Position numbers and translations under genes: made by a program. 64,000 nucleotides of DNA from Isoetes taiwanensis (lineage: Eukaryota > Streptophyta > Lycopodiopsida > Isoetales > Isoetaceae). Shown here piece by piece: positions 6,940-63,480 of the stretch (its first letter is position 1; the number at the start of each line of letters is the position of its first letter). The stretch spans positions 1-64,000 of the forward strand of contig JAJEKV010000159.1 of NCBI GenBank assembly GCA_021234155.1, read 5' to 3'. The notes below the pieces were generated by a model that had not been told where the DNA came from, made no database searches, and saw only the letters and a list, made by a program, of their open reading frames with translations.

Positions 6940-7060
6940 GTGACATGGTATAGCCTTGGATGCTCGAGGACGAGCATAGTTCTAGTGGGAGAGACTGTAA
7001 CGGGCCCATGGTAGACCGCTCGAGTATTCGAACCTTGAATGTGCCTGTGGGGTGTTCCCG
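6940..7060 (+). mobile_element. Ty3/gypsy 3' fragment: polypurine tract and LTR start
   Basis: A GCTCGAGGACGAGC-containing segment near 6958-6978 is followed by AGTGGGAGAGAC and TGTAACGGGCCC near 6984-7008. In plant chromovirus-type gypsy elements the pol end typically reads CGAGGACGA..., then a GTGGG(G)GAGA polypurine tract, then an LTR starting TGTAACG. The match is to this junction only; no gypsy coding domain or full LTR is visible. The fragment lies between the LINE 5' end and the resumed copia sequence, which adds another layer of nesting. ATGCTCG and CGAGCAT form a 7-bp hairpin across AGGA. Confidence 0.55.
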
Positions 7061-7141
7061 AGACACCGGCATAAATGGGTAGAAGTGACTACTCATAAAA
7101 GTCTAGACGGTTTTGCCCAGTTGGTTAAGGGCATGTCGGTT

Positions 7142-8267
7142 AGGAACAAGAAGAGTCTCTATGGTTTGAGACAAGCACCACGATGTTGGCACCAGAAAAT
7201 TAATGCTTTTCTTCTTGAAATGGGATATCAGCGATCAGGAGCAGATCCAAACCTCTATTTCAAAACAGAGAATAGTATGATTTCTGTCCTATTGTTGTAT
7301 GTGGATGATACTATTGTGACTGGCGATGCCATTCAGCTTATTCAGCAAACAAAGGATTGGCTTAAGCATAACTTCGAGCTTACAGATCTGAAGCTTATGC
7401 ATTATTGTTTGGGGATTGAAGTGTGGCAAACTGCAGATGGTATACATCTTACTCAACAGAAGTACATTTCAGAGTTACTAGCACAGTTTTATATGACAGA
7501 CTGTACATCTGCATTAACGCCATGTGAACCAGGCCAAAAGCTCACAATTGAAGGCCGCGAGGAAGATCTGAGATGCTACTTTGTATCGACGGTTAGTGGG
7601 GTCATTATTATATCTCACTCATACTTTCGACCCGGACATAATCTATGCAAGTAGGAGTTTTATCACGATTTATGCATAATCCAAAGAAGCCACACTGGGT
7701 TCTTTGCTCAAAGAGTCTTGCATTATCTTGGGGATACAAAAGCGAGTAAGGGATTTTCTATGAACGAGTCACTGATCCAAAGCTTCATTTGTTTTCTGAT
7801 TCAGATATGGCATCTACAGATATTACATCCAGGAAAAGTCTTACAGGGTATGTTTCTTTTTATGGAGGTAATCCTATTACTTGGAAAAGTCAGAAACAAG
7901 AGTCTACAAGTTTAAGTACAACCGAGGCAGAGCTTAAAGCACTTGTTTCTACAGTTCAGGAGTTGATGTGGATTGTCCATCTGTACGAAGATCTGGAGTG
8001 TTAACAAAGCCTGCACTTCTATTTTGTGATAACAGTGGTGCAGTGTTACATGTCAAGGATTATCAATGGCGTTTACAGATTAAACATCTTGACATTAAAC
8101 TATGTTTTATAAGGGAACAAATTGATAATGGTATGCTTACATTATCCTACTGTTCTACCTCAGATCAAGCAGCGGATGGCTTCACTAAACAACTTGCTGG
8201 TCGCCAGTTTGCTCGTATGAAGCAGATTCTGCATATTATTCCTGCTACTGTGACTTCAGGGGAATAA
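7142..8267 (+). pseudogene. Ty1/copia pol remnant (RT C-terminal part and RNase H)
   Basis: The RT resumes with NKKSLYGLRQAPRCWHQK near 7145-7190, followed by DPNLYFKTENSMISVLLLYVDDTIVTG with the catalytic YVDD at 7298-7309. Next come LKLMHYCLGIEV and GIHLTQQKYISELL. After a degraded linker the RNase H follows: SDSDMASTDITSRKSLTGYVSFYGGNPITWKSQKQ and STTEAELKAL near 7795-7950. After a frameshift come CDNSGAVLHV...HLDIKLCFIREQI and a TKQL-type C-terminus, ending with a stop at about 8265. This part is much better preserved than the plus-strand copia at 1340-3480. It could be the other side of the same insertion-split copy or a different copia copy; the junction residues are compatible with one element. 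Confidence 0.85.
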
Positions 8268-21774: not shown

Positions 21775-22780
21775 ATTCTAGAATGGGACTCGCATGAAAC
21801 CAACAAACCGTTGCTTCTCATTCATCTCAGCAGATTTTCTACAATGGTGGATAGTGGGTAGCCGCACACATGCGAACTACCCACAAAAAATAAAGGGAAA
21901 CTCCAATTATATCATTTGGACCCCAACAAAATACAATGCTAATAGAGATTGGGCTAGTGTACTGCTAGAAAGCTTATCAGGGGATTAAAAACCCAGCCCT
22001 TTCGGGTTTTCGAGGAAAAACCCTAGTGATAAGCCTTGACAAGGGGCTTGACAAACGTAAGGCATAAAAATCGCTCCCCAAAACCCACGAATGGAAAAGT
22101 CCCGAAGCGGTGCTTTCGCTAAACCCGTACGCACATCACCAACAAAACAACAAGACAAAAACAAACCTCCCGAGTGGAGGGGCTGATTCTGTAGCGTGCC
22201 CACGCGATAAAAATACAACAACAAAGAAGGGGAGGGTGGGTTCAAAGAGAATAAGGTAATCGCGAGAGAGAAGAGGAAGCCCGATGAGAAGTCGATCGTA
22301 GCGCCTAAAATAGCGAACTCCCCAACGAAACGGGCATCGCGCCGCCGCGATGCATGCAAAACATGCATGCTCGTCCCATTCTAGAATGGCGATCCGATGT
22401 CTCGGATCGATGGGATTCTAGAATAGGACTTGCATGAAACCAACAAACCGCCCGAATACCAAAGGACTTCCTTAACAAACTAGGATCGAGGACGAAGGTC
22501 ACAGGATGAAGGCTAAAGGCCGAGAAAGGACAGCATGAAGAGACGCCAAATTGGCCAAACCAGGCAGGAAAAAGCCCCTCCCCTGCCTGGAAACAATTCA
22601 AAGAGAATAAGGTACTGCTGAGAGAGAAGAGGAAGCGCCGATGAGAAGTCGATGCAGAAGCGCGCCTAAAATAGCGAACTCCCAACCAGAACGGCCATGC
22701 GCCGTCCGCATGCATGCAAAACATGCATGCTCGTCCCATTCTAGCATGGCGATCCGATGTCTCGGATCGATGGGATTGTA
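21775..22780. repeat. Direct repeats of a GC-richer unit (36 bp and about 180 bp)
   Basis: A 36-bp word starting ATTCTAGAAT and ending CAACAAACCG occurs at 21775-21810 and 22415-22450. A 177-181-bp unit starting TTCAAAGAGAATAAGGTA and ending TCGATGGGATT occurs at 22241-22417 and 22597-22777, with scattered indels. Each long unit contains GCATGCAAAACATGCATGC and a perfect hairpin CGATCCGA/TCGGATCG (22390-22409 and 22750-22769). The arrangement could be internally duplicated non-autonomous elements. No transposase was found. Confidence 0.75.
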
Positions 22781-23653: not shown

Positions 23654-25137
23654 ATGTCAACTAGATTAGGAGCATCTCTTCTAAGTGTTGTTGATGTTTT
23701 TAAAGTAACAGGGGGCTTCCAAGTGTGGAAGGAAAAGATAAAAGTACTAGAGGTGGAAGGGCTGTGGACTTATGTCACAGGAGAAGTTGAGCAGGTTAAC
23801 TCAGTAGCAGAAAAGAGGCAGTCATCTCAACTGCTAGTTCAAGTGCAAAGGATGATGAGAGTATAACAGAAGTAAGTTCTGAGGTGAGTGTGGCTACTAA
23901 ATTAATTGAAGCCAAAAGTATTATCACTGTTAAACTAGGATCTACTATACTATTAAAGGTTAGAGATATGAGTCCTAGAGCAATATGGAAATATCTGGTT
24001 GCCACCTATGACAATAAAACATCATCTCAATTGGATGTTTTAAATAGGGAGCTAAGAAATCTGAAATACCATGATAAGGAGAACATCACTGAATTTTTCC
24101 AAAAGTTTGACAACTTGGTTGCAGACTTAGAGGCAACAGGAGTAATGATCACTCAAGATCACCAGGTAATGACTATTGCCCGAGCGTTTTCAAATTATGA
24201 ACATCTGTCCACTTTAGTCAGAAATGTTGCAAAGAATAGAGAGAGTGCTGAGTTAATGGTGAAGACAGAACTTGAGCAGAAAGCAATCATCAGTGATACA
24301 AATGATCAAACTGAAATTTTATTTGCTGGAAGGGGAAAAGGAAAAAACAGTGATAAGAGTAAAATTGGACCATGTTATATGTGCAATAGTTATGAACATC
24401 TAAAAAATATCTCTTCAAAGAATGTGAAGGAGAACAAATGTTACTCTTGGCAACAAGTTGTTCAAGTCCTAAGGGCTATGCTAGAGACAGGGCAGAAATG
24501 ATAATCCCAGAGGGAATTTCATAAGGGGCGAGGGGAAGAGGACGAGGAAGAAATACCATAACCATTAATATTGCTAAAAGTGTAGATGCTGAAGGAGAAG
24601 AAACACTGGACGAGAATTTAGAGGTAAGCACAACCCCTAAAATTCCAAAGGTTTTGTCCATAAATAAGACAACTTCTAAAGATGATTTGCTTGTATTAGA
24701 TTCAGGAACTGAAAGATCAGTCATAAAAGATCTAAACAAACTCAAGGAGAAGGAGAAAAAGGGGTCCAGCTATGTGCAAATGGGAAATGGGAACATGCAA
24801 AAAGTTGAGGTGACAGGAATGCTTGAAATATCTGACTTGTCAGGAAAACAAGTCAAACTCAGAAATGTGCTATGTGTACCTTCAATTATCAGAAATTTAA
24901 TTTCTGTTAGTCAGCTTGTTGATCTAGTTTTAAGAAAACACATTGTAAAATCTTTCTTGGAAATACATTGAAATTTCTAGCAAGAAGAGTTGGTAATTTA
25001 TTTGCATTTGATAATGAAAAACTTGATGGTTCTATCAATTTGGTCTCGGCTCCAACAACCAAAAATCGGCATGAAAGATTGGGGCACACACATCTAAATA
25101 ACATTCAGTATATGATCAAGCACAATATGATTATTGC
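23654..25137 (+). pseudogene. Ty1/copia gag-protease-preintegrase remnant
   Basis: Gag begins at ATG 23654 (MSTRLGASLLSV...GGFQVWKEKIKVLEVEGLW). After a frame break it continues as a UBN2-type domain at 23884-24440, with IWKYLVATYDN, LNRELRNLKYHDKENITEFFQKFDNLVADL and DHQVMTIARAF. The zinc knuckle near 24370 is degenerate (CYMCNSYEHLKNI), with the last Cys missing. The protease follows at 24685-24920, with the active-site motif LVLDSGTERSVI and NVLCVPSIIRNLISVSQL. A GAG-pre-integrase segment (HERLGHTHLNNIQYMIKHN) ends near 25130. The copia then stops abruptly at a minus-strand L1. Integrase, RT and RNase H are absent. Confidence 0.88.
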
Positions 25138-62921: not shown

Positions 62922-62926
62922 ATTCT
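62922..62926. repeat. Target-site duplication, left copy (ATTCT)
   Basis: The five bases directly before the 5' LTR are repeated directly after the 3' LTR at 63476-63480. Confidence 0.92.
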
Positions 62927-63104
62927 TGTTGGAATGTTGGAGTATGTGTAATGGGCACACATGAAGAATGACTCAGTGGAAGAGTACCGAAAGCCCATCA
63001 AAGGGCCGGTAGCTCAGTGGTAGAGTACTTGGCTTGCAAGCAAGAGGTCCTGGGTTCGATCCCCAGCCTGTCCACCCAATCATAGAAAAGCTCATTTCTC
63101 AACA
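62927..63104 (+). repeat. TRIM 5' LTR
   Basis: 178 bp, TGTTGG...CAACA. The first 76 bp contain a tRNA D-arm-like segment (62969-62988), then the tRNA-like unit (63003-63074) and a 30-bp tail. Confidence 0.95.
63003..63074 (+). tRNA. tRNA-Ala(UGC)-like sequence in 5' LTR
   Basis: The 72-nt unit folds as a cloverleaf: acceptor GGGCCGG/CCTGTCC, D stem GCTC/GAGT, anticodon loop CTTGCAA (anticodon TGC) and T arm CTGGG-TTCGATC-CCCAG, then A73. The acceptor has G3-U70, the alanine identity pair, and one C-U mismatch at 5-68. The anticodon stem CTTGG/GCAAG has a G-G mismatch at 31-39. The polymerase III A box (TAGCTCAGTGG) and B box (GGTTCGATCC) match consensus. No T run for termination follows closely. 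It is best read as a tRNA-derived promoter or structural module of the LTR, not as a working tRNA gene. Confidence 0.85.
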
Positions 63105-63117
63105 TGGTATCAGAGCC
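63105..63117 (+). other. TRIM primer-binding site (initiator-Met tRNA)
   Basis: TGGTATCAGAGCC directly adjoins the last base of the 5' LTR. This is the standard plant LTR-retrotransposon PBS. The primer is therefore tRNA-iMet, not the alanine tRNA carried in the LTR. Confidence 0.93.
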
Positions 63118-63288
63118 ATGGTCCCAAGTAGAGGGTGCTTAACAGCACCGGGATAGCCCCCAGTGGTGTAGGGGTGAGAATGAGTAAAGCTTGGCCAGTG
63201 GAAAGCCCAACTCCTGCAGTGGTGGAGTTGCCCGAGGAGGGGAGCTTGTGGATTGTCGTGAAGGCTGGAATGGATTGGTGTGCCCATT

Positions 63289-63297
63289 AAGGGGGAA
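63289..63297 (+). other. TRIM polypurine tract
   Basis: AAGGGGGAA ends at the base before the 3' LTR, as needed for plus-strand priming. Confidence 0.9.
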
Positions 63298-63475
63298 TGT
63301 TGGAATGTTGGAGTATGTGTAATGGGCACACATGAAGAATGACTCAGTGGAAGAGTACCGAAAGCCCATCAAAGGGCCGGTAGCTCAGTGGTAGAGTACT
63401 TGGCTTGCAAGCAAGAGGTCCTGGGTTCGATCCCCAGCCTGTCCACCCAATCATAGAAAAGCTCATTTCTCAACA
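63298..63475 (+). repeat. TRIM 3' LTR
   Basis: No difference from the 5' LTR was found over 178 bp. It is followed by the ATTCT target copy at 63476-63480. Confidence 0.95.
63374..63445 (+). tRNA. tRNA-Ala(UGC)-like sequence in 3' LTR
   Basis: Same 72-nt unit as at 63003-63074, 371 bp downstream, with the same G3-U70 pair and the same two mismatches. Downstream lies host sequence (ATTCTCGGTG), also without an early T run. Confidence 0.85.
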
Positions 63476-63480
63476 ATTCT
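63476..63480. repeat. Target-site duplication, right copy (ATTCT)
   Basis: Identical to 62922-62926, confirming a single LTR-type insertion event. Confidence 0.92.

Follow-up and report, generated by a model that had tools for sequence, protein, structure and literature searches.

A Helenus-type miniature LTR retrotransposon family in Isoetes taiwanensis, probably driven by RNA polymerase III from a tRNA-Ala-like module in its LTRs

The window analysed here is a stretch of 64,000 nucleotides of Isoetes taiwanensis DNA (contig JAJEKV010000159.1, positions 1 to 64,000, forward strand). Near its end lies what was originally predicted to be an intact miniature LTR retrotransposon (TRIM) with a tRNA-Ala gene-like module in each LTR. 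What does such a module do in an element that is 549 bp long in total, has an internal part of 193 bp and has no coding capacity? We consider the locus to be a recently inserted copy of a non-autonomous, Helenus-type LTR retrotransposon family driven by RNA polymerase III (Pol III) from the LTR module, and give this reading a probability of roughly two in three. The evidence lies in the anatomy of the element, in copies dispersed with their own target-site duplications (TSDs), in solo LTRs and tandem arrays, and in a depletion of pre-insertion variants from the module.

The anatomy was correct to the base as originally described, with identical 178-bp LTRs, a primer binding site (PBS), a polypurine tract (PPT), a 5-bp TSD and one module per LTR:

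62922-62926, no strand: left TSD, ATTCT, 5 bp (sequence)
62927-63104, plus strand: 5' LTR, 178 bp, TGTTGG...TCAACA (100% identity to 3' LTR)
62999-63001, plus strand: CAA triplet just 5' of the module, possible Pol III start (conservation in 88 LTRs)
63003-63074, plus strand: tRNA-Ala(UGC)-like module of the 5' LTR, 72 nt, with C:U and G:G stem mismatches (ARAGORN, Rfam)
63010-63021, plus strand: A-box-like TAGCTCAGTGGT (sequence; motif TRGCY/YGG, PMC10886601)
63054-63064, plus strand: B-box-like GTTCGATCCCC (sequence; motif GGTTC, PMC10886601)
63105-63117, plus strand: PBS TGGTATCAGAGCC, initiator tRNA-Met (iMet) type (sequence; iMet-like 3' ends in the genome)
63105-63297, plus strand: internal region, 193 bp; stop-to-stop frames that touch it reach at most 89 codons
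63278-63289, plus strand: left arm of a perfect 12-bp inverted repeat bracketing the PPT
63289-63297, plus strand: PPT AAGGGGGAA (sequence; PPT/LTR pattern matches genome-wide)
63298-63475, plus strand: 3' LTR, 178 bp (repeat search)
63320-63331, plus strand: right arm of the 12-bp inverted repeat, inside the 3' LTR
63374-63445, plus strand: tRNA-Ala(UGC)-like module of the 3' LTR (ARAGORN, Rfam)
63476-63480, no strand: right TSD, ATTCT, 5 bp (sequence)

A repeat search of the 64-kb window aligned the two LTRs (62927-63104 and 63298-63475) at 100% identity, and their termini are TG...CA. The PBS sequence TGGTATCAGAGCC has two exact matches in the window, against a shuffle mean of 0.07 with one mismatch allowed in the shuffles. 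With one ATTCT taken out, the joined flanks carry a minus-strand open frame of 183 residues that spans the empty site, consistent with an element that landed in a reading frame older than itself. None of TATAAA, TATATA, TATAA, AATAAA or ATTAAA is present in the LTR of the window copy. The inverted repeat (63278-63289/63320-63331) could place the PPT in a 30-nt loop (z -3.2); in the 24 TSD-bearing copies its arms formed a standard pair in 286 of 288 cells (four of them G:U) and were broken in two, and a role in plus-strand priming is conceivable. Elsewhere in the window, at 7052-7651 and 23884-24498, lie fragments of Copia-type reverse transcriptase and gag (Pfam RVT_2, Retrotran_gag_2).

The PBS complements the 3' end of iMet, and iMet-like 3' ends, GGCTCTGATA, occur in the genome: an iMet 3'-end pattern found 131 places at up to two mismatches, 10 of them exact. 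The 3' end of the module is not complementary to the PBS, so the carried tRNA is not the primer; the view that the module is no captured primer and that the PBS is of the iMet type holds.

To place the locus in a family, the genome (1,658,258,908 bases, 1110 contigs) was searched. The whole element gave at least 46 matches (40 of 376 candidates scored). Module cores matched a 40-base pattern at 295 places with up to three mismatches, LTR/PBS junctions a 26-base pattern at 123 places with up to two, and PPT/LTR junctions their pattern at 142 places with up to three; the reversed control was 0 each time, and genome-wide the pattern of copies lies far beyond chance. Perfect 5-bp TSDs flanked 23 of 43 LTR-pair rows (24 of 43 allowing one mismatch), a strict count that assumes the LTR to start at position 1 and rows that take in array-internal and cut pairs; by eye, these 23 TSDs are 22 different sequences. 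A recheck, near the aligned ends, of the 19 rows without a TSD added L031 (TCTTT) and possibly L043 (TAACT); a match at L047 looks like chance, and the count was kept at 23/43. At L031 and L107 the LTR begins 8 nt further in, from the second TGTTGG of the TGTTGGAATGTTGG end, and is likewise flanked by a perfect TSD; the LTR start thus seems variable. Seven LTRs lacked a standard partner; three of these (L079, L089, L107) have perfect TSDs, as for solo LTRs, and the remaining four are either cut short or lie next to PPT or PBS sequence. A module-only search returned at least 41 matches (40 of 448 candidates scored), and all 30 loci kept from it fell within LTRs of the same Helenus-type family. 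Three LTRs stand in a row, as tandem arrays, at L013 and L039, the whole L039 array lying inside a single TSD, CCGCT. Internal-region tandem duplications were also seen in several of 20 copies (L110, L111, L115, L120, L125, L127), with units of ~83 bp in L111. Seven of the 24 TSD-bearing elements have no LTR-LTR substitution and the others have up to 11, indicating that insertion has been both recent and prolonged. Dispersed copies with other TSDs, which the original prediction proposed to look for, therefore exist, and what was found is neither a single copy nor a set of tandem tRNA duplications lacking the PBS/PPT arrangement elsewhere.

Helenus, described in 2024, comprises TRIMs with tRNA-derived LTR sequence from fungi, animals and, as the sole plant, Selaginella moellendorffii (PMC10886601). 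The family studied here resembles it in being a TRIM shorter than 1 kb (here 549 bp) with a tRNA-derived sequence in each LTR and with PBS and PPT, in its 5-bp TSD, as in plant and fungal Helenus (here perfect in 23/43 rows), in the conserved A box (TRGCY...YGG) and B box (GGTTC), in a carried module that is not complementary to its own PBS, and in its solo LTRs, many tRNA-like predictions and tandem arrays, the last found in one zebrafish family of Helenus. By these described features the I. taiwanensis family is a Helenus-type TRIM, and the earlier assignment to tRNA-bearing TRIMs is borne out by LTRs, module, boxes, PBS, PPT and TSD alike. It differs from Helenus-1_SMo of S. moellendorffii in size (LTR 178 bp against 120 bp, internal part 193 bp against 85 bp), and its PBS matches the 3' end of iMet whereas those of the majority of fungal Helenus families match anticodon loops (PMC10886601). 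As far as literature searches show, the family is new within an already known class and follows a single earlier one reported from a lycophyte; no report of Isoetes together with Helenus was found in a literature search.

Cassandra is likewise a TRIM with an LTR module derived from a Pol III gene and forms tandem arrays, according to PMC4717578, but its module is 5S rRNA and the one here is a tRNA; at gathering thresholds Rfam found no 5S in the window. Helenus and tRNA are absent from the main text of a Cassandra paper (PMC10853983). Module-free plant TRIMs, including those of Selaginella, resemble the family as miniature LTR elements with TSDs and tandem arrays; in the main text of that survey 'tRNA' occurs 0 times, so that no tRNA module is reported in it (PMC4717578). 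A tRNA-derived SINE, which has no LTRs, PBS or PPT and is mobilised by LINEs, was rejected as a description of the window element, which has LTRs, TSD, PBS and PPT.

We asked how far the module is still a tRNA gene. ARAGORN called tRNA-Ala (TGC) at 63003-63076 and 63374-63447, the sole two tRNAs in the 64-kb window, and Rfam RF00005 scored each module at 62.3 bits (gathering score 29); at gathering thresholds Rfam found these two tRNAs in the whole window and nothing else. Both programs thus return one tRNA per LTR. Across 44 LTR pairs the majority sequence reads TAGCTCAGTGG for the A box and GGTTCGATCCC for the B box. The module retains anticodon UGC, a G:U third pair and A73. G3:U70 is a tRNA-Ala identity element, so that the third pair of the module reads as Ala-like. 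The stems tell otherwise: in 48 of 48 LTRs from 24 elements the acceptor stem carries a mismatch (C:U in 46, U:U in 2) and the anticodon stem a G:G mismatch, neither of them ever repaired, and a working tRNA is therefore unlikely. The label 'tRNA-Ala gene' accordingly stands for the Ala-like anticodon and G:U pair and fails for the two mismatched stem pairs. Folded alone, the module has a best structure of -20.5 kcal/mol that is not the cloverleaf (-18.7 kcal/mol, a gap of 1.8 kcal/mol), and its folding z-score is +1.2. The CAA triplet, 4 to 2 nt upstream of the module, is conserved over 44 LTR pairs (C in 81/88, A in 86/88 and A in 88/88 LTRs); its C is T in 5/88 LTRs, the T variant also occurring in both LTRs of an element, i.e. 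before insertion. In plant tRNA genes, transcription is reported to start at CAA triplets lying up to 10 nt 5' of the gene (PMC11700998).

To determine whether the module matters to replicating copies, we made use of the equality of the two LTRs at insertion: a variant present in both LTRs most likely arose before insertion, and a difference between them arose after it. In 41 LTR pairs, post-insertion differences numbered 78 in the module and 117 elsewhere, so that the module took 40% of them versus 41% of the compared sites, and distinct pre-insertion variants numbered 8 and 41 (ratio 0.29, bootstrap 0.16-0.48, Fisher p 0.0023). No such depletion was seen in control 72-nt blocks starting at LTR positions 1, 27, 53 and 107 (ratios 1.78, 1.30, 0.95 and 0.87), those from 27, 53 and 107 partly overlapping the module. 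Depletion was seen in the A and B boxes (3 pre, 36 post; p 0.017) and equally in the rest of the 72 nt (p 0.029, from 5 distinct pre- and 42 post-insertion changes). Substitutions per site in the 24 elements were 0.010-0.012 in the module vs 0.038-0.047 in the rest of the LTR.

A first set, 32 of the 43 pair rows, had 49 post-insertion differences in the module and 89 elsewhere with 8 and 36 distinct pre-insertion variants (p 0.039; p 0.015 minus CpG sites), and the 24 TSD-bearing pairs alone had 27 and 47 post and 5 and 28 pre (p 0.038). Adding 16 pairs, with three three-LTR loci skipped, gave 48 pairs and p 8e-6. L104 and L121 look misaligned, L098 is oddly spaced and L119 is heavily decayed; without the first three, 45 pairs gave p 0.00016, and without L119 as well, 44 pairs gave p 0.00056. 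L095, L098, L103, L104 and L106 were in the set on the strength of perfect module identity, a source of bias in this test; after their removal 43 pairs gave p 0.00013, and dropping L119 and L121 also left the 41 pairs quoted above, the most conservative of the extended sets. These p values come from Fisher tests that treat events as independent, on a sample drawn from few source lineages, in which similarity to the window copy set the ranking of copies and some LTRs were cut by the fetched stretch. The module mutates in proportion to its length after insertion and has few pre-insertion variants: replicating lineages keep it. Source copies therefore seem to need it, and selection seems to protect it during multiplication; Pol III promotion is the likeliest reason.

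For the polymerase, the helper and the ends of the RNA we infer the following course. Pol III would recognise the A and B boxes, start at the CAA before the module (LTR position 73) and read on through the end of the LTR, the PBS, the internal region and the PPT into the 3' LTR; the transcript would end where the first T-run occurs, in most cases within flanking DNA, and would carry a repeat R (LTR 73-178) at both ends. Initiator tRNA-Met would prime reverse transcription at the PBS, cDNA would be made in trans by enzymes of an autonomous element, probably Copia, LTR 1-72 would be restored from the 3' LTR, and integration would generate the 5-bp duplication. From the end of the element to the first TTTT the median distance is 103.5 nt (22 of 24 elements having TTTT in the fetched flank). 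TTTT is absent from 23 of the 24 TSD-bearing elements and from the unique 371 nt of the window copy; its absence was rejected as evidence of read-through, 71% of shuffles of these 371 nt also being without it. RNase P/Z would excise a competent tRNA and destroy R in doing so, and the two fixed mismatches would thus fit a module that serves as promoter and not as tRNA. Several observations count against parts of this course: the CAA at the proposed start site is not invariant, a promoter alone would not predict the constraint outside the boxes, the lone module folds best into something other than a cloverleaf, and no helper came to light in the searches described below. According to the Helenus authors themselves, experiments are needed before its Pol III promoter can be called functional (PMC10886601). 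A tentative refinement, to which we would give odds well below even, sees in the module an imperfect mimic of a tRNA that is kept by selection, all 72 nt being needed for replication and the mismatches allowing it to act as Pol III promoter and yet escape RNase P/Z.

The module might instead act as RNA, a tRNA-like fold within R aiding packaging, reverse transcription or stability of a transcript made by Pol II or by read-through. Pre-insertion variants are scarce in the A and B boxes and in the remainder of the module alike, which leaves promoter and RNA roles unseparated, and both this and the low substitution rates across the entire 72-nt module are what an RNA role would favour. Against it stand the two stem mismatches, a lone module that does not favour the cloverleaf by energy, and an LTR with none of the checked TATA or polyadenylation motifs, and we regard it as unlikely. 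That this is an ordinary Pol II TRIM whose LTR once took in a tRNA gene or SINE, the module being a neutral passenger, we hold to be improbable: Helenus has been proposed to stem from the insertion of a SINE (PMC10886601), and module-free TRIMs are common in plants (PMC4717578), but a passenger would not combine proportional post-insertion mutation with few pre-insertion variants. It is very doubtful that the element spreads usable tRNA-Ala genes to the benefit of its host. The UGC anticodon, the G:U third pair and A73 are indeed kept; the acceptor-stem (C:U or U:U) and anticodon-stem (G:G) mismatches in all LTRs and the lack of TTTT in the unique part of the window copy speak against it, as does a host that already has 220 ordinary tRNA-Ala pattern matches, largely clustered among the 100 matches listed. 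A tandem tRNA-gene duplication or assembly artefact, which a 178-bp direct repeat with one tRNA per copy resembles locally, is refuted by the 123 LTR/PBS junctions, the 23 pairs with their own TSDs and the lone LTRs with TSDs.

Pol III-driven copies would still need a helper. An autonomous element sharing the PBS-PPT flanks, which the original prediction suggested seeking, was not identified among the internal-region matches and the junction pairs spaced up to 7.0 kb. No larger element was present among at least 42 internal-region matches (40 of 263 candidates scored), 40 of the 42 covering at least 188 of 193 nt and the two partial ones lying beside such copies. Pairing the first 100 of the 123 5' junctions with the first 100 of the 142 3' junctions listed gave 53 pairs, 51 spaced at 141-772 bp and two at 7.0 and 10.4 kb (on C919 and C1056). 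In the 7.0-kb pair (L112) the TRIM sequence is left at internal position ~77 for a repeat that also occurs twice at window positions 22241-22774; with this dispersed repeat present, nesting of one element in another explains the spacing better than a partner would. A chimeric locus (L116/L129/L130, G000:C985:13040260-13042420) is an old copy with TSD CTGTC and a ~0.8-kb insert at internal position ~43-50. By its motifs the insert resembles a Copia pol 3' end; it had no Pfam match and no PDB sequence match. Co-packaging with a Copia helper was not upheld as its explanation: the 5' junction of the chimera has a single genome match, itself, and filler DNA taken up during break repair would account for the locus just as well.

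Among the tRNA-like places and patterns searched in the genome, no tRNA gene stood out as the source of the module. Of 20 tRNA-like places fetched, the two closest to the module are LTR sequences of the same family and the next ones are tRNA-Ile. By eye, the ordinary tRNA-Ala genes (the 220 pattern matches) have a D loop one base longer than the module and a different anticodon stem. A canonical D-arm pattern had two matches, both of which look like module variants, and a tRNA-Cys pattern had 0 genome matches. Six plasmid records were returned by blastn, matching solely around the module at 77.8-84.2%, which reflects general tRNA likeness. The host also has long clusters of tRNA-like genes (G000:C926, C232, C66, C921, C971, C534, C1101, C1079), with three anticodons among the 100 tRNA-Ala pattern matches listed; places on G000:C1101 were typed tRNA-Ile and on G000:C1079 tRNA-Arg, and matches to the two-mismatch iMet 3' pattern are often ~660 bp apart on G000:C971 and C534.

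Setting pre- against post-insertion variants tells neutral decay apart from selection that acts on copies as they replicate, and the approach is open to every TRIM family. With its hundreds of tRNA-like loci in a plant genome, the family has a bearing on inflated counts in tRNA annotation. For the related Isoetes sinensis, 8,975 annotated tRNAs are reported (PMC10541799), and this count may be tied to the family described here. If the reading of the module as an imperfect tRNA mimic is true, Helenus would be a Pol III-driven LTR retrotransposon whose own make-up keeps it from turning into a true tRNA.
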